DNA from: Fidelibacterota bacterium
GTDB lineage: Bacteria; Fidelibacterota; UBA2242
Direction: 5' to 3'
DNA length: 37,659 nt
Assembly: GCA_021161185.1 (NCBI GenBank)
Contig: JAGHBC010000144.1
Span: 1 to 37,659 of the forward strand
The notes beneath the pieces were generated by a model. It ran no database searches and was not told the origin of the DNA. It saw nothing but the letters and a program-made list of their open reading frames with translations. The position numbers and the translations under genes are program-made. This document shows positions 19,637 through 28,060 of the stretch, one piece after another; the first letter of the stretch is position 1; every line of letters starts with the position of its first letter.

Positions 19637-20899
19637 ATGAAAAAAATTCTCGTTGTATTTTTTATAGTGATTGCTAGCGTTTTCTCTCTAAACGCTCAGA
19701 GTGAAGCAGGTGCGATCTGGCTTTTGATTAACCCCGGAGCCCGTCCGGCAGGCATGGGTGAAGCCGGTGTCGCAGTGGCAAACGATGCCTATGCCAGCTA
19801 CTGGAATCCAGCCGGACTTGGGTTTTTGCGGGGGAGAGAAGTGGCGCTAACTCATACGAACTGGTTACCGAATCTGGCAAGTGATATTTATTATGAGTTC
19901 GTTGGTTATCGGCATTTTGTTAAAAACGTAGGTACTTTAGGCGGTAATCTTGTTTTGATGAATCTCGGTGAGCAGGATCGTACCGATGAATACGGAAATT
20001 TCCTCGGTACTTTTTCTTCCTATATGATGGCGATAACCGGTTCCTACGGAACGGCTCTATCGCGTACATCTGCGATTGGTATTAATATAAAAATGATCTA
20101 TCAGCATTTAACCGATCAGGGCGCTGGGGCAGAACTGGGGAAGGGAACATCCACTAACTTTGCCTTTGATGTAGCTTACATGAAAAAGCAGTTTTTAACT
20201 AAAAACCTGACTTTTGGTGCTACTATAGCTAATATTGGACCAAAAATTGCCTTTATTGACGTTTCTCAGGCTGATCCAATGCCCACGAATCTGAAAATGG
20301 GTTTAAATTACACTTTCGGTGGCGAATTTAATAGAGTAACTGTCGCCTACGATGTCAATAAACTGCTGGTTGCTTCATATCCCAACAGAGATATTGACGG
20401 CGATGAACGTGTTGGATATTATGATGAAAATGGTCATTATGTCGGTGCTGCCGGACAATACAATAAAGACGGTCAAATGGAAGCGGCTCATACCGATGAC
20501 TGGTACATCGGGATGTTCACATCCTGGATTGACGATTGGTTATTGCTGTATGATTCTGATGCTGACGGTATTGGCAAAGATGTCGGTGATGGGAAAAATC
20601 AATATGGAAAAAAAGCCGATGAAGATGGAGATACCAATGACGGATCTCTGGTGAGGGAACTCGAGAAATTAAATCACAACCTCGGCGTCGAATACTGGTA
20701 TTCGGATCTTTTTGCGATTCGTATCGGATGTATCTATGATAAAACCGGTAAGATCCTCATGAAAGGTAAATGGCCTGTCCCGACTTTTGGTGCCGGTTTA
20801 CGTTATGCCGGATTGGGAATTGACTTTGGTTATACTGCCGGTGAAGCCGGTCACCCGCGGGCGAACACGATGTTTTTCTCACTGAATATAAAATTTTAG
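19637..20899 (+). CDS. PorV/PorQ-family outer-membrane protein with Asp-rich insert
   Basis: PorV-type barrels are outer-membrane partners of the T9SS that hand cargo to the attachment machinery. The signal peptide ends at LNAQ (residue 20). The family start INPGARPAGMGEAGVAVANDAYASYWNPAGLG and the ending with RANTMFFSLNIKF are clear. Between about residues 252 and 335 there is an acidic insert with Ca-binding-type loops, DIDGDERVG (252-260) and DSDADGIGKD (306-315), that the standard barrel does not need. It stands directly before a gene for a protein with a T9SS sorting domain, as expected for a cargo partner. I left the symbol blank because PorV and close paralogues cannot be separated by eye. 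Confidence 0.8.
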   Translation: MKKILVVFFIVIASVFSLNAQSEAGAIWLLINPGARPAGMGEAGVAVANDAYASYWNPAGLGFLRGREVALTHTNWLPNLASDIYYEFVGYRHFVKNVGTLGGNLVLMNLGEQDRTDEYGNFLGTFSSYMMAITGSYGTALSRTSAIGINIKMIYQHLTDQGAGAELGKGTSTNFAFDVAYMKKQFLTKNLTFGATIANIGPKIAFIDVSQADPMPTNLKMGLNYTFGGEFNRVTVAYDVNKLLVASYPNRDIDGDERVGYYDENGHYVGAAGQYNKDGQMEAAHTDDWYIGMFTSWIDDWLLLYDSDADGIGKDVGDGKNQYGKKADEDGDTNDGSLVRELEKLNHNLGVEYWYSDLFAIRIGCIYDKTGKILMKGKWPVPTFGAGLRYAGLGIDFGYTAGEAGHPRANTMFFSLNIKF

Positions 20900-20960: not shown

Positions 20961-23900
20961 ATGAAAAAACGATTTTTATTTTCATTGATATTATTACCAG
21001 TTGTGCTATTAGCGCTTAATCCTTCAAAAGCTAATATACAACCCTCTTTACGAAAGTTATCTTCACCGTATATCTCCGGACCGCTGACAAACGGCACGAT
21101 TTCTATCTGTGCGTTGCGGGTAGCATTTCAGGAAGATGACAATGAAGCAACAACCGGCACCGGTCAATTTTTGGAATCTGCAACATTGCCTTGTGATAAT
21201 TTTCCCGTTATCGATCCCGCTCCTCATAATAATGCCTATTTTAAGGACCATATCCGGGCATTGGCAAACTTTTACAGCCACGCTTCCAACGGGCACGTTG
21301 TTATCGACACCAATCTCTCAAGCGTATTTCCTTTAGACGACTCAAATCCCTACCAACTATCCCGTAAGATGGAATACTACCATCCGTTTTTACAAAAAGA
21401 TTCCATTGATATTCGTCTGACACAGCTTTTTGTTGAAGCCGTAAAATTGGCTGATGACGATACTGATATCGATTTCAGCAAATATGATGTCGTGGTTGTA
21501 TTTCATGCCGGAGTCGGTCAGGATTTTGATCTTTTCCTCGATCCGACGCCCTATGATATCCCATCAGCCTGTTTAACCAGCGCCGATTTGATGAAATATT
21601 TTTCCGAAACAGGTGAATCGGCAAACAGCATATCCGTAGACAATGGAACTGTTCAAATCGACCGGGGACTCATACTGCCCGAATCTCAAAATCACCTACT
21701 ATATCCAAATTGGGAAGACGTCTTTGGTGACGCTTCGATACCCTGCGATTATCAAATCGGTCTGAATGGGACATTTGCTTTCATGATGGGTTTTTATCTC
21801 GGCTTGCCGGGGCTATATAATACGGAAACCGGTGAAACGGGGATTGGAAAATTCGGACTGATGGATCAGGGGTCGGCGAACCTGAACGGGCTGGTTCCGG
21901 CTTATCCTTCCGCCTGGGAACGGGAGTTCATGGGCTGGGATACACCGGTGATTGCGCAGGGCTTTAATGATGTTAAACTGCGTCATGCAGAGTCCGGAGC
22001 CGATACAACTCTGTGGAAGATACCGATTAATGATAATGAATATTTTTTACTGGAAAACAGATATACGGATGTCTATCCCGGCGTGACTTTGGACAGTATT
22101 CAGTACAGGCTTTATGTCGAAGCCGGCGAAAAAGAACCGCAGCCCTTAATTCCGCTGATTGTGGATTCAATTGATGCGAAATTTTCAGCGGCGACTGGTG
22201 TACTGCTTTCAGTTCCGAGATATGATGTTGGTTTGCCGGGCGCCGGACTGCTGATCTGGCATATTGATGAATCGGTTATCGATGCCAATCTTGCGACTAA
22301 CAGTGTGAATCTTAATAAGAACCATCGCGGCGTGGATCTCGAGGAGGGCGACGGCGCCCAGGATCTGGGTTATGAATCTCAGATGATTGGCTCTACCGTG
22401 GATGTGGGTTGGTATTTTGATCCATGGTTTGCCGGCAATGAAGGCTTCTGGCACTTGAATCCCGATTATCCCGAAGATGCTGAAAAACGGGTGGGATTTA
22501 GCGATTATACCAATCCGTCTTCCCGCAGCTATGACCGGGCTTATACCGGGATTGTGGTGGACAGTATCGGACCGGCAGATTCGGTGATGACGTTTCGGAT
22601 TTCTGAGGAATGCCAAAGATTTGAGGATGAACATATAAAAATATCATCAGGGATATTAAATGTTGACATATTTGTGGATGACGGATCAACCGAGTTTATT
22701 ACTATCTCTGACAGTATATATTTATACTTGCCAAACACCGAAAAGCTTTCTGCAACCAGTTATTTTGGTTTTAGACCAATTGAGGTGATTGGCATATCGC
22801 CAAACACATTTGCATTTTCAAATGAAACACACCGATATGTTGAGAACGATACTTCGGACAGGCTTTTACAGGTTTGGCGGATTAACGATGATTACCATCT
22901 GAATTTGATTGACACGTTGGAATATAGAATATATAAACCGTATAGTAATCTGTTTTATGATAATGGAGTATTTCTTCAGGTTATTCAAACACTCAACAGG
23001 CAGACCATCTTAATGAGTTATTCTGATCAGACTGGCAATATCGAGTATGAACAGATAATTGATGATGGAAGTTATAAAATTGTTGGACAAGGAAACGGAA
23101 TATTTTTAGTAAATAGTGATGATGGCTCGATTGATAAATTAAGTTTGAATTCTAATGGTATCCAAAATATTGACCAACTGCAGGTAACGGTGACACCGTT
23201 AGTTCTCAGTGCAGCGGTTGGTTTTATCGATGCTAATAATATTCCAGATGTAGTTACAGTGAACAGGAATGGTATCGAATTAATATTAAATCCTGGTTCA
23301 GATTCTGTTGAACTGAAATCCTATGCTGTTCATTCCTCTTACGGCGACCATCTTGCCCTGAGTGATATTGATGGGGATACACGCCCGGAAATACTTCTGC
23401 AAACTAGTTATGATCTATATGCTTTTAACGAAGCATTATTGCTGGAAAATAATTATCCGATCAGTGTTCCAAACCAATTCCGAGGAACAATGTTTGATAC
23501 GCAGTTACTCACAAGTGACGTTGATGGAGATGGATTAGTAGATGTTATTACGATGTTGGATCATACTGGCATAATTTCTTTTAATTACCGGGGAGAACTG
23601 ATTGATGGATTTCCCAAAAGCTTCCCAATGCTATTAGATGGAACCGTTTCTTTGTTATCATTTAATGGTAGCTTGGTTTTTTGTGGGAGAACTGCAGAAC
23701 CAGCAGGACATTATACTGCAATTCAATTGAGTGATAATGTTTTATCTGAGGATGCATGGTACACGAGCGGTGGGAATCGGAAGCGGAATAATTATTATTC
23801 CTTAATTCCATCCGGAAACGGAATCGTTTCTAATGGTCTTTTAAACAAGCATAAAACCTTTAACTGGCCGAATCCGACCAAGTTTAACCGCACGGCGATT

Positions 23901-24122
23901 CGCTATTTCCCGACTGCGGAATGTGATATTTTGATTGATATCTATGATCTTGCCGGGGATTTTATCACATCTTTCAGGGATTCCAATCCATTAATTAATG
24001 ATTACAACGAAATAGAGTGGAACGTCACTAATGTAGCTAACGGCGTCTATTTTGCCGTTGTAAAAGCCACGTCCGGCAGTAAGACCGAAAGTAAAATCGT
24101 CAAAATAATGGTTATTCATTAG
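20961..24122 (+). CDS. Secreted M6 peptidase-like protein lacking the active site, with T9SS sorting domain
   Basis: The protein has 1053 residues. After a signal peptide (about 1-25) comes an M6 (immune inhibitor A-type) peptidase-like domain to about 550, recognisable by the GLPGLYNTETGETGIGKFGLMDQGS region, AWEREFMGW, and GAGLLIWHIDESV with NHRGVDLEEGDG. The catalytic HExxHxxGxP is replaced by FMMGFYLGLP (274-283): both His and the Glu are lost, so it should not be an active metallopeptidase. Residues about 560-970 form a beta-propeller with FG-GAP/VCBS-type Asp loops (SDIDGDTRPEI, SDVDGDGLVDV). The last 85 or so residues are a T9SS type A sorting domain (NWPNPTKFNRTAIRY ... IYDLAGDF ... 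NGVYFAVV). The stop overlaps the GTG of the next gene as TAGTG. A binding or structural role on the cell surface is likely. Confidence 0.75.
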   Translation: MKKRFLFSLILLPVVLLALNPSKANIQPSLRKLSSPYISGPLTNGTISICALRVAFQEDDNEATTGTGQFLESATLPCDNFPVIDPAPHNNAYFKDHIRALANFYSHASNGHVVIDTNLSSVFPLDDSNPYQLSRKMEYYHPFLQKDSIDIRLTQLFVEAVKLADDDTDIDFSKYDVVVVFHAGVGQDFDLFLDPTPYDIPSACLTSADLMKYFSETGESANSISVDNGTVQIDRGLILPESQNHLLYPNWEDVFGDASIPCDYQIGLNGTFAFMMGFYLGLPGLYNTETGETGIGKFGLMDQGSANLNGLVPAYPSAWEREFMGWDTPVIAQGFNDVKLRHAESGADTTLWKIPINDNEYFLLENRYTDVYPGVTLDSIQYRLYVEAGEKEPQPLIPLIVDSIDAKFSAATGVLLSVPRYDVGLPGAGLLIWHIDESVIDANLATNSVNLNKNHRGVDLEEGDGAQDLGYESQMIGSTVDVGWYFDPWFAGNEGFWHLNPDYPEDAEKRVGFSDYTNPSSRSYDRAYTGIVVDSIGPADSVMTFRISEECQRFEDEHIKISSGILNVDIFVDDGSTEFITISDSIYLYLPNTEKLSATSYFGFRPIEVIGISPNTFAFSNETHRYVENDTSDRLLQVWRINDDYHLNLIDTLEYRIYKPYSNLFYDNGVFLQVIQTLNRQTILMSYSDQTGNIEYEQIIDDGSYKIVGQGNGIFLVNSDDGSIDKLSLNSNGIQNIDQLQVTVTPLVLSAAVGFIDANNIPDVVTVNRNGIELILNPGSDSVELKSYAVHSSYGDHLALSDIDGDTRPEILLQTSYDLYAFNEALLLENNYPISVPNQFRGTMFDTQLLTSDVDGDGLVDVITMLDHTGIISFNYRGELIDGFPKSFPMLLDGTVSLLSFNGSLVFCGRTAEPAGHYTAIQLSDNVLSEDAWYTSGGNRKRNNYYSLIPSGNGIVSNGLLNKHKTFNWPNPTKFNRTAIRYFPTAECDILIDIYDLAGDFITSFRDSNPLINDYNEIEWNVTNVANGVYFAVVKATSGSKTESKIVKIMVIH

Positions 24123-27100
24123 TGTCTAAAGTTCATCGAATACTTATAAATTATATTTTCTTTTTCCTGATCTTCAGCGGGATTTTTATTCCGGCTAAAG
24201 TAAATGCCCAATTTGCCACTTATAATCATCCCGAATTGAATTGGAAAAGTTTTGAAACCGACCATTTTGAGATTCATTATCATGAAGGCGCCGAGTGGAC
24301 CGCCTGGAAGTCAGCCGATATTGCCGAGGCTGTTTATGGACCCGTTACTTCATTCTATAATTATGAACCGGATCAAAAAACCGATCTGATTATTAAAGAT
24401 ATTGGCGATAACTCTAACGGCGCCGCTTACTATTACGACAACAAGATTGAAATCTGGGCTACACCCCTGGACTATCCGCTGAGAGGAAATCATTACTGGT
24501 TGCTGGATGTAATCACCCATGAATTCACTCATATAGTTTCGCTTCAGAAATCAATGAAATACACCCGCTCGATACCGGGTTTCTATTTTCAGGTAATTGA
24601 CTATGAAGATGAAAAACGTGATGATGTTGTTTACGGATATCCCCGGGTAATTTCCTCTTATCCGATTCCGGGGCTGGTGATTCCTATGTGGTTAGCCGAA
24701 GGGATGGCGCAATTCATGTATCCCGGAACGACCAATGACCTTTGGGATTCTCATCGGGATATGTTGTTGCGTGACCGCACACTGCACAAGAAGGTCTTAT
24801 CCTTCAGTCAAATGGCTTCATTTGGGAAACGGGGCATTGGAAATGAATCGACCTACAACCAGGGTTATGCTTTTGTCAGATATCTATCCGATCGTTTTGG
24901 ACCGGATGTGATTCCCCGGTTGGCAGACATTATTTCAAATCCCGTACAGTTTTCGATTAATAATGCGCTGAAGAAAGCCACCGGAGTTCCCGGTAAGCAG
25001 ATATATAACGAATGGGTTCAATATCTTGAAACCTATTATGGCAAACTGGCGCAAACAATTTTACAAAATCAGGTAATTGGCGATATTCTAATTGGTGACG
25101 CTACGACTCAGTATTATCCGGAGTGGAGCGGTGATTCACTGATCTATTATCTCTCAAATCGCGGGCGCGATTATTTTATGCAGACCTCATTGTATGCATA
25201 CGACGTAAATACAAAGAAAAGCAAATTAATTCAACCCAAAGTACTATCGCGCATATCGGTCGCCCCGGACGGTAAAAGTATTTATTATTCCAAAAGTAGC
25301 AAACCCGACAAACAGGGCTGTGTCTTTTTTGATATTTATCGCTATGATTTACAGCGCAAGAAGGAAAAACAGATTACAAAATATGCCCGGGCTTATAACC
25401 CGGCGATATCACCCAACGGCAAACAACTCGCCTTTGTTTCCGGTCGGGACGGCACCTCGAACCTGTTTATCATGAATATGGACTCGATGACATCAAAAAA
25501 GGTCACCGATTACAGTGACGGCTTGGAGATATTCACCGCTCACTGGTCGCCTGATGGCAGACAGATTGCTTTCGATTATATGACCGATCACGGCCGGAAT
25601 ATCGCCGTGTACCACGTCGCCGATGGAAAATTTGACTATATAGATACCGAACATTATGATTCCCGAAATCCTTTTTTCAGCCCCGATGGAAAATGGCTCT
25701 ATTACGCTTGCGATAAAACAGGCATCTTTAACATTTACCGCAAGTCGCTTGGTAGCGGCGCCGTGGAACTGGTGACCAATGTCGTCGGCGGCGCCCAAAT
25801 GCCTTCCGTGAATCAAAAAGGTGAATTGCTCTATTCGCTTTTTGATGATTCGTCTTTTAAGATCGCTATGATCGAAGAACCCCGGGAGATCAGTAATGAA
25901 ATTGCACAATATTTCAATTATTCTGAAACGGTTCCCAACATTATGGCTGTCGCGGAATTGGAACGAGTAAAGCCGGTAAAATATAAAGACAAGTTCTCGA
26001 AAATGTTTATTATGCCTCGCGTAATGATAGACTATGGCACCGTGAAACCGGGTTTTTATTTCTCTTCGTCGGAAATTCTGGACCGTTTTAATATTTTCGG
26101 GGGCGCCTCGGTCAACAGCATCAAAGATCGGGATTTGATGGTGTTATTGGAATATCATCAGTGGTATCCGACGATTTATCTGGAGTTTAATAATATCAGC
26201 CGCAGTATTTTAAATAAAAAAACTACTTATAACGGTTACCCGATTGAAGTGGATTATACCTTTTATTTAACTGAGGCGCTTGCGGGAATTTCTGTTCCCA
26301 TGTCCGGCATCAATCAGTTAAGGTTTGACGTGAGTTGGTCGAAGTACCGGACAGCGACAGATGAGAAAATTCCATCAGCCGGTATTTATTCCAATGGATT
26401 CACCTATGATTATTACCGGGGTGTAGATTTTAAACTGAACTGGCTGCTTAAAAAGGTAGTTCCAACTTTGAATCAATTTACAAATCCGGACAACGGCATT
26501 ATTTTAAACACCAATATTTATAGAAATTATGATAAATTTCTAAAGGATTTTGGCGTCAATGAGGATTTTGGGACATTAGCCGAAAATTTCCGTAAAAATT
26601 ATTACTGGAAAATTGAGCATGAAGGTGAATGGCGGCACAAATATCCGGTGGTCAACAAATTGGTTGGAACCTTGAAGTGGCGAGCCGGCTGGATATCCAA
26701 ATATGATATTGATACCTTTTTCAACTTTTTTGCCGGGGGAATGCCCGGTTTGAGGGGTTATCCATTTTATAGCATGGAAGGACGCAACCTGTTCAGTTTG
26801 CACTATACCTGGAGAATTCCGCTGTTTCGGGAACAAGATATTCAGATTTTGCCTTTCAATCTGCAAAACGCATTTTTGGCGACCTATGTTGAAACCGGGA
26901 ACGCTTGGAATAAGGTAAAGGGCTATCCGGGCATGAACTGGTCGGATTTTACACTGAATACCGTGGACATCGTAAAATCCATAACATCGGATTTTAAATC
27001 CGATATTGGTATACAATTAAGATTAAGCGGATTTTCATTTTATGCTTATCCAACGGCAATCAGTCTGGATTTCGTCTATGGTATTGACGAGTTTACAATC

Positions 27101-27175
27101 GTAGACAGGCAAGATGTACCCCATCAGTATGGGAGAGAATGGCGAACATATTTAACAATACTTTTTGGATTATAA
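24122..27175 (+). CDS. Outer-membrane metallopeptidase: gluzincin, PD40 propeller and Omp85-like barrel
   Basis: The protein has 1017 residues and a signal peptide ending at VNAQ (residue 30). Residues about 31-315 are a gluzincin (peptidase MA-like) domain with H133-E-F-T-H137 and the third zinc ligand E193 in WLAEGMAQF. Residues about 320-600 hold five or six PD40 (TolB-like) blades, each with a SPDGK-type turn (ISPNGKQLAF, WSPDGRQIAF, FSPDGKWLYY). From about 640 to the end it is beta-rich; GGMPGLRGYPFYSMEGRNL, with LRGY at 877-880, matches the (V/L)RG(F/Y) motif of Omp85 barrels. I see no POTRA domain. The design suggests a protease anchored by its own barrel. Its GTG start overlaps the pseudo-M6 stop, so the two are translationally coupled. 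Confidence 0.75.
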   Translation: MSKVHRILINYIFFFLIFSGIFIPAKVNAQFATYNHPELNWKSFETDHFEIHYHEGAEWTAWKSADIAEAVYGPVTSFYNYEPDQKTDLIIKDIGDNSNGAAYYYDNKIEIWATPLDYPLRGNHYWLLDVITHEFTHIVSLQKSMKYTRSIPGFYFQVIDYEDEKRDDVVYGYPRVISSYPIPGLVIPMWLAEGMAQFMYPGTTNDLWDSHRDMLLRDRTLHKKVLSFSQMASFGKRGIGNESTYNQGYAFVRYLSDRFGPDVIPRLADIISNPVQFSINNALKKATGVPGKQIYNEWVQYLETYYGKLAQTILQNQVIGDILIGDATTQYYPEWSGDSLIYYLSNRGRDYFMQTSLYAYDVNTKKSKLIQPKVLSRISVAPDGKSIYYSKSSKPDKQGCVFFDIYRYDLQRKKEKQITKYARAYNPAISPNGKQLAFVSGRDGTSNLFIMNMDSMTSKKVTDYSDGLEIFTAHWSPDGRQIAFDYMTDHGRNIAVYHVADGKFDYIDTEHYDSRNPFFSPDGKWLYYACDKTGIFNIYRKSLGSGAVELVTNVVGGAQMPSVNQKGELLYSLFDDSSFKIAMIEEPREISNEIAQYFNYSETVPNIMAVAELERVKPVKYKDKFSKMFIMPRVMIDYGTVKPGFYFSSSEILDRFNIFGGASVNSIKDRDLMVLLEYHQWYPTIYLEFNNISRSILNKKTTYNGYPIEVDYTFYLTEALAGISVPMSGINQLRFDVSWSKYRTATDEKIPSAGIYSNGFTYDYYRGVDFKLNWLLKKVVPTLNQFTNPDNGIILNTNIYRNYDKFLKDFGVNEDFGTLAENFRKNYYWKIEHEGEWRHKYPVVNKLVGTLKWRAGWISKYDIDTFFNFFAGGMPGLRGYPFYSMEGRNLFSLHYTWRIPLFREQDIQILPFNLQNAFLATYVETGNAWNKVKGYPGMNWSDFTLNTVDIVKSITSDFKSDIGIQLRLSGFSFYAYPTAISLDFVYGIDEFTIVDRQDVPHQYGREWRTYLTILFGL

Positions 27176-27184
27176 GGAGGTATA

Positions 27185-28060
27185 ATGAAAAAGACGATTA
27201 TTAAGACGGCATTGCTCCTTGGCTTTTTATTGCCTGCACTGGTTTTCGGGCAGGTGTATCTGGCAAATGAAACCTTAACTACATCCGATCGCGCTATGCT
27301 GGAAAGCGGATTGAAGTTTAATTCGTCTCCGCAAGATTCTTTCGAGTTTGAATATAAAAAATCACCGGGTAAAGCATTTTTATTATCGGCACTGGTACCG
27401 GGTGCCGGTGAATATTATGCGGGCGCCAAATGGCGGGCTTTGACGTTTGCCGGTGTTGAAGTATTTTCCTGGATAATGTATTTCAACAGGAAAGGTAAGG
27501 GCGAAGACCTGGAAAAAGAATATAAGAAGTATGCCGATGAAAATTGGACATTGAAAAATTTATATATGAATGGCATGAATAGTGAGAAAACCGGACTCTC
27601 GGGGTCGCATTACATTTATCTGGAATATGATGACGTTGAATATGAAGGCAATGCCACGTATTTGGATACTGCTTTTGTGGGTTGGGAATCCTATGTATTA
27701 AATGGAGATATGCAACCTGTCCGCACACGTGATTATTATGAAAATATTGGTAAATATGATCAATTTGCGGGCGGTTGGAATGATTTTTTGAATTTCAATT
27801 CCGATCCTGATACAGTGTATATGTCAGATCTGCGGAATAATTATTTAAATCAGCGCAAAGATTCCAATGATGCGTTAAAGATGGCGACCAATTTCGCCAC
27901 GGCAATTATGTTTAATCATATAATTAGCGCTTTTCATGCCCAGGTTGCGGCGAAAAATTATTTCCCCGAAGCGGAAAAAGTCAGTTGGCAGGTCGGCTTA
28001 ATTACGGACATTCGTCAGAAAAATCCTTTCAGAGGTGTGTCGTTATCGGTGGCTTTTTAA
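27185..28060 (+). CDS. DUF5683-like membrane-associated protein
   Basis: A perfect GGAGG site precedes the ATG, 9 bases after the upstream stop, so it belongs to the same operon. The 291-residue protein has a signal peptide (cut near FGQ, residue 23) and the segment SPGKAFLLSALVPGAGEYYAGAKWRAL, typical of DUF5683-type proteins in this superphylum (hydrophobic, S-x-L-x-P-G-x-G, then Y-x-G-x-x-W-x-A). One or two further hydrophobic helices follow, then a polar region with many Tyr, Asn and Asp. The C-terminus FRGVSLSVAF looks like a membrane-spanning beta strand. The function of this family is not known to me. It may support the coupled surface protease. Confidence 0.55.
   Translation: MKKTIIKTALLLGFLLPALVFGQVYLANETLTTSDRAMLESGLKFNSSPQDSFEFEYKKSPGKAFLLSALVPGAGEYYAGAKWRALTFAGVEVFSWIMYFNRKGKGEDLEKEYKKYADENWTLKNLYMNGMNSEKTGLSGSHYIYLEYDDVEYEGNATYLDTAFVGWESYVLNGDMQPVRTRDYYENIGKYDQFAGGWNDFLNFNSDPDTVYMSDLRNNYLNQRKDSNDALKMATNFATAIMFNHIISAFHAQVAAKNYFPEAEKVSWQVGLITDIRQKNPFRGVSLSVAF

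Follow-up and report, generated by a model that had tools for sequence, protein, structure and literature searches.

The M6i locus and its domain layout

The window analyzed in this study, a 37,659-nucleotide stretch of DNA, comes from a 2.09-Mb genome of Candidatus Neomarinimicrobiota (also known as Marinimicrobia, SAR406, or Fidelibacterota). An ORF on its forward strand, which stays open from the ATG at position 20961 to the stop at 24122 (20961..24122), encodes a protein of 1053 aa, designated here as M6i. The protein was identified as a T9SS-exported, M6-like inactivated peptidase by its full-length match to the NCBIfam model NF052323 (T9SSA_dep_M6i, “T9SS-dependent M6-like inactivated metalloprotease”; 8e-157, residues 7-1053 to model positions 6-1043), although the score, 524 bits against a cut-off of 600, does not confer formal membership. 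M6i exists in a single copy, being the sole full-length match in a search of its own genome. Its gene is preceded by that of PorV, the outer-membrane T9SS shuttle (19637..20899, forward strand), which was assigned from NF033709 (1.1e-74, 252 bits; cut-off 90), NF033710 (197.6 bits; cut-off 250), and its rank in the genome. Behind M6i lie the genes of a peptidase-MA-like protein, referred to as MAP (24122..27175, forward strand), and of a DUF5683-like protein (27185..28060, forward strand), the latter being placed as the next member of a conserved block by synteny and by a match to PF18935 just below the cut-off (3.9e-5).

M6i begins with a probable Sec signal peptide, read directly from the sequence, at approximately residues 1-25 (MKKRFLFSLILLPVVLLALNPSKAN; 20961..21035, forward strand). 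An M6-like domain follows at approximately residues 41-545 (21081..22595, forward strand), as delineated from paralogue alignment, conservation, and the match of residues 277-369 to TIGR03296 (4.6e-18), which at 66.1 bits stays below the cut-off of 110.8. The scaffold motifs that the initial annotation had picked out, GLPGLYN, GLMDQGS, GLLIWHIDE, and NHRGVDLEE, are all found in the protein. The propeller proposed in the same annotation can be maintained only in a weaker form: the variable middle of the protein (22596..23822, forward strand) contains FG-GAP-like beta-propeller repeats at residues 756-812 and 847-864, but their matches to PF13517 (1.2e-5, 26.2 bits; cut-off 26.9) and PF01839 (0.0048) are both below the cut-offs. 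A type-A T9SS C-terminal sorting domain (CTD) occupies residues 969-1047 (23865..24101, forward strand) and exceeds both curated cut-offs, with 28.9 bits for PF18962 (cut-off 27) and 29.3 bits for TIGR04183 (cut-off 23), which bears out the earlier description of the protein as a T9SS cargo. A sequence search of PDB with the single M6i protein gave no match, while the best matches of the M6i CTD profile there were PorU (6za2) and 5m11, which we take to be PorZ.

Loss of the zinc site across the clade

M6 peptidases use the HExxHxxGxxD motif, in agreement with the 12 M6 paralogues from the same phylum that served as the comparison set. These read G(V/I)xxHExGHxxGLPDxYDT and keep His1, Glu2, His5, and Asp11 without exception (12/12), whereas the alignment shows that all four are gone in M6i. 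PMC3890501 describes this sequence as the Asp-zincin motif. The corresponding stretch of M6i reads GTFAFMMGFYLGLPGLYNTETG, and the dead site itself, FMMGFYLGLPG, spans residues 274-284 (21780..21812, forward strand): the first His is replaced by F274, the Glu by M275, the second His by F278, and the Asp that would be the third ligand by G284, with M276, G277, and G281 lying between the replaced ligands. The residue numbers given in the initial annotation are thus exact, and the M6i protein of the window contains no other HExxH that might take over the active site.

The same loss is found throughout the relatives of M6i. Among 119 distinct site sequences obtained from related loci of three phyla, namely Neomarinimicrobiota, KSB1, and a phylum represented by nine genomes, the first position is never His, the second is never Glu, and the HE..H pattern does not occur; Leu occupies position 1 in 86 of the 119 and Met position 2 in 82. 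No HExxH exists anywhere in the 41 aligned M6i sequences from Neomarinimicrobiota. As for a displaced motif in the orthologues, an isolated HExxH occurs some 60 residues upstream of the site at two loci (L109 and L113) and was taken as a product of chance. Asp at position 11 is retained in six site sequences, all from the nine-genome phylum. The loci in which the third zinc ligand is kept (as GMPD) without HExxH are L160, L217, L218, L222, L224, and L253, and this remainder suggests that the site was only partly erased in that phylum.

The expectation that an alignment of the site would reveal a clade lacking HExxH has therefore been realized, and the alternative in which M6i is a lone mutant among intact orthologues, a pseudogene, or the result of a sequencing slip can be practically discounted, because all the orthologues from the three phyla have the dead site together with open frames. 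As a separate observation, in one locus (L257, G243:C1) a single TGA splits the M6i frame into pieces of 238 and 813 aa, which might be a sequencing error or the sign of a decaying copy. In a quick tree, the inactive proteins were split from the HExxH-bearing paralogues by a branch with a support of 100, with the proteins of Neomarinimicrobiota grouping together (90), those of KSB1 likewise (89), and those of the nine-genome phylum appearing in two places. The paralogues in the tree are all from Neomarinimicrobiota, and a wider sampling of M6 proteins could shift the root; the inactive proteins can, from their sequences, be regarded as one clade.

The distribution of the clade is wide. The M6i protein of the window found matches in 58 of 61 relatives, and the NF052323 model found matches at E<=0.001 in 197 of 199 Neomarinimicrobiota genomes and, at E<=1e-40, in 75 of 82 KSB1 genomes and all nine genomes of the third phylum. 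One lineage, f9 (0.7-1.0 Mb), was sampled with 20 genomes, in which the matches were weak (1e-6 to 1e-12) or absent; all 20 were counted as lacking M6i. The sampled genomes are mostly incomplete metagenome assemblies, and the sampling extends to three phyla because the one scan of the named genome collection covered the best 79 loci of 481 relatives.

The pattern of conservation helps in considering what has been preserved. Mean pairwise column identity is highest in the M6-like domain (0.40), followed by the CTD (0.36) and the middle (0.13), and the replaced site itself (residues 268-292) is, at 0.60, among the better conserved stretches of M6i. Residues common to the dead and HExxH-bearing proteins include H182, G184, G186, P240, E241, G270, G277, G281, P283, G296, M301, G304, E360, L363, E365, R367, G429, W433, H434, D464, G465, and D487. 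One might suppose that the domain still works by means of another metal site or another chemistry, given that H182, D188, D194, D199, H434, E360, and E365 persist as conserved residues in M6i. H182, H434, E360, and E365 are, however, equally conserved in the HExxH-bearing paralogues and therefore look like scaffold residues, and the dead site is filled by Leu/Phe and Met, so that we consider a surviving activity very improbable. The scaffold is kept while the zinc ligands and the general base are lost throughout the clade. Because the domain and its scaffold residues are conserved without the catalytic residues, purifying selection acts on the fold of M6i. Such selection is the usual mark of a binding-type pseudo-enzyme, and a binding function might be supposed here as well. 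That M6i might serve an active M6 sibling as a decoy was rejected for this genome, in which, at 91% completeness, no second M6 domain was found.

Gene order and the T9SS context

The order of porV followed by the M6i gene was found at 65 of 65 loci across the three phyla. The gap between the two genes is 3 to 157 bases in 64 of the 65, and the exception is L257, where the broken first piece of M6i fills the gap. Within the limits of the contigs, 40 loci from Neomarinimicrobiota and the window share the order PorV, M6i, MAP, DUF5683, BamD-like, and nadD, and 18 loci from KSB1 have PorV, M6i, MAP, and two DUF5683 genes. At the six loci from the nine-genome phylum, the pair of PorV and M6i is constant; MAP and DUF5683 come next in two of them (L252 and L254) and are absent behind M6i in three (L250, L251, and L253), while the contig ends in the last (L160). 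PorV is, therefore, a more constant neighbor of M6i than MAP is.

The linked PorV appears to be the true one. A search of the window genome with the model of the PorV/PorQ family hit 15 places (E<=1e-10), and the linked copy has the top score for true PorV (NF033710), with 154 bits for its best piece compared with 93 for the next copy. The same holds for almost every one of the 41 genomes searched, the exceptions being broken-contig genomes such as G015 and an f9 genome without M6i (G027), and on this basis a tie of M6i to a PorV paralogue instead of PorV was rejected. Apart from this, Neomarinimicrobiota (G000 and its relatives) have about 10-25 proteins of the PorV/PorQ family per genome against one or two expected, which are possibly many dedicated shuttles.

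T9SS is generally regarded as restricted to Bacteroidota (PMC12618676). In that phylum, type-A CTD proteins exit via SprA/Sov, PorV collects them, and PorU removes the CTD and anchors the product (PMC5562754, PMC12618676); PorV there serves all type-A cargo (PMC12618676). Of the 199 Neomarinimicrobiota genomes, 188 have SprA and 168 have PorU. The window genome contains SprA, PorV, and PorU (744 bits), as expected for the host of a type-A cargo with a CTD, and it also contains a PorZ-like protein (247 bits; cut-off 260). The presence of this protein was the reason for rejecting M6i as the missing PorZ, and PF21544 alone is too weak to show PorZ. Probable PorZ orthologues of approximately 790-815 aa (L266:1880-4252 and L267-L270) have a CTD of the longer-loop type, lie downstream of a ribBA-like gene in four of the five loci, and fall just under the NCBIfam PorZ cut-off (247 against 260 for L266). 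Another side finding is a full-length SprA at G185:C9:2506-9399, which scores 2362 bits, whereas the other long matches in the phylum score about 500-690; the contig is probably a Bacteroidota contamination of the assembly.

The f9 lineage lacks both M6i and PorU (e.g., G027, G045, and G102). No PorU match at E<=1e-20 was found in its 20 genomes, most of which keep a strong SprA match, and f9 is the one sampled lineage without PorU. At six f9 loci (L260-L265), a MAP homologue exists without adjacent PorV or M6i, with a score of only 130-148 bits that leaves its orthology uncertain.

These distributions bear on the earlier proposal that M6i is a partner of the active protease encoded next to it. 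MAP has the gluzincin motifs HEFTH...WLAEG, a PD40 propeller (PF07676, 1e-19), a match to PF13485 below the cut-off (8e-6), and probably a C-terminal outer-membrane barrel. HExxH is kept in 61 of 61 MAP sequences and WxxEG in 59 of 61, and MAP looks like an intact gluzincin. It is as widespread as M6i and belongs to no Pfam peptidase family above threshold. M6i and MAP are consecutive at 55 loci, with spacing that is mostly an overlap of 1 base, as in the window, or of 4 bases, or a separation of a few bases, and M6i might bind the outer-membrane gluzincin or its substrates as a regulator, the two proteins acting as one unit. The pair is, however, broken at L250, L251, and L253, where PorV and M6i exist in flanked loci without MAP directly behind, and also in f9, which retains the distant MAP homologue without M6i. 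Because of these breaks, partnership with MAP is less well supported than the link to PorV, which is unbroken wherever M6i exists, and we regard it as an unlikely explanation.

Possible role of M6i and comparison with known systems

The findings of the present study suggest, with somewhat better than even probability in our judgment, that M6i is a vertically inherited M6-fold product of the T9SS in Neomarinimicrobiota, KSB1, and their relatives that has lost catalysis, and that it would be delivered by PorV and act on the surface as a housekeeping binding or scaffold protein. Since the CTD exceeds the type-A cut-offs, export and surface display by the T9SS route would be the simplest fate of M6i: the protein would be made together with PorV, cross the outer membrane via SprA, and be collected by PorV before its display. 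The dead cleft and the FG-GAP-like propeller suggest binding, one of the candidate roles (binding, adhesive, or regulatory) raised by the initial annotation. In such a role, the M6 cleft, no longer cutting, would serve as a binding or scaffold face and the propeller might assist in binding. The partner might be something common to these cells, such as another T9SS product, an envelope glycan, or a peptide, and the role would be a housekeeping one rather than that of a niche effector. Several points weaken this explanation: the standing of the M6i gene beside porV could be due to shared regulation only, M6i and PorU went missing together just once, in a single lineage with reduced genomes, and the CTD finds its best PDB matches in PorU and 5m11, which gives a component-type role some probability.

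Another explanation, to which we assign a rather low probability, is that M6i is an unrecognized constituent of the T9SS that, similar to PorU and PorZ, is exported and then held on PorV or the attachment complex. The fixed link to true PorV in three phyla, the joint absence of M6i and PorU in f9, and the resemblance of the CTD to those of 6za2 and 5m11 are consistent with this explanation. Precedents also exist: the CTD stays on PorU, PorZ, and PorA, which are constituents exported by the system (PMC11285876), and PorZ combines a propeller with a CTD (PMC8545088). If so, M6i would be a constituent found specifically in deep FCB lineages other than Bacteroidota. It would act on PorV, perhaps as a chaperone, a gate, or a docking factor for loaded PorV, and the display of type-A cargo would require it, but we think this improbable as well. 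M6i cannot be a simple substitute, given that PorU and a PorZ-like protein are also present; the TIGR04183 cargo cut-off is passed by the CTD of M6i and failed by PorU of the same genome (21.6 bits); and the model systems of Bacteroidota function without M6i as far as described. The loop from W to GVY in the CTD lacks the longer form in 46 of 65 M6i proteins, whereas all PorU and PorZ proteins examined here have it; ordinary cargo has both lengths, and the loop is therefore weakly informative, with the shorter form leaning weakly toward cargo.

No matter whether M6i is a standard surface protein of these cells, as we prefer, or a missing part of the T9SS, a dead peptidase is among the most constant T9SS products in three phyla, one of them large and marine, where it is locked to the gene of the shuttle. 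It also illustrates clearly how the fold of a peptidase can persist long after its catalytic site was lost, with one branch still retaining the third zinc ligand. No paper on the M6i family or on the T9SS of Neomarinimicrobiota was found in the open-access literature.

Compared with M6 peptidases of the TIGR03296 type, such as immune inhibitor A and PrtV, M6i shares HAGxG, GxGxxxLM, EYLxENR, GLLIWHIDE, N450, and DG, but HExxHxxGxxD is wholly replaced (by FMMGFYLGLPG in the window) and the score is 66 bits against the required 110.8, which places M6i outside the active M6 peptidases. PorZ and PorU are likewise envelope proteins that are exported by the T9SS and have a CTD at their ends, and propellers are present in PorZ as well (PMC8545088, PMC5562754); the two differ from M6i in the folds upstream of the CTD and in the longer loop that M6i mostly lacks, and the window genome encodes PorU and a PorZ-like protein elsewhere. 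The pairs of type-B CTD proteins and PorP/SprF in Flavobacterium johnsoniae (PMC12618676) resemble M6i and PorV in that the gene of the cargo adjoins that of the shuttle, but M6i has a type-A CTD and its shuttle is PorV. The closest known counterpart is NF052323, which has the same domain order, the same loss of the catalytic site, and the same C-terminal type-A CTD as M6i of the window. Its cut-off is passed in none of the 199 Neomarinimicrobiota genomes but in 26 of 82 from KSB1 and four of nine from the nine-genome phylum, and the model appears to be centered outside Neomarinimicrobiota. Because the full-length match of M6i is below the cut-off while members from KSB1 are above it, M6i of the window would represent a sister branch, not a formal member, of a kind already recognized by NCBIfam. 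To that kind, the present study adds the gene order behind porV at all 65 loci, the link to the best true PorV of the genome, and the co-occurrence with PorU.
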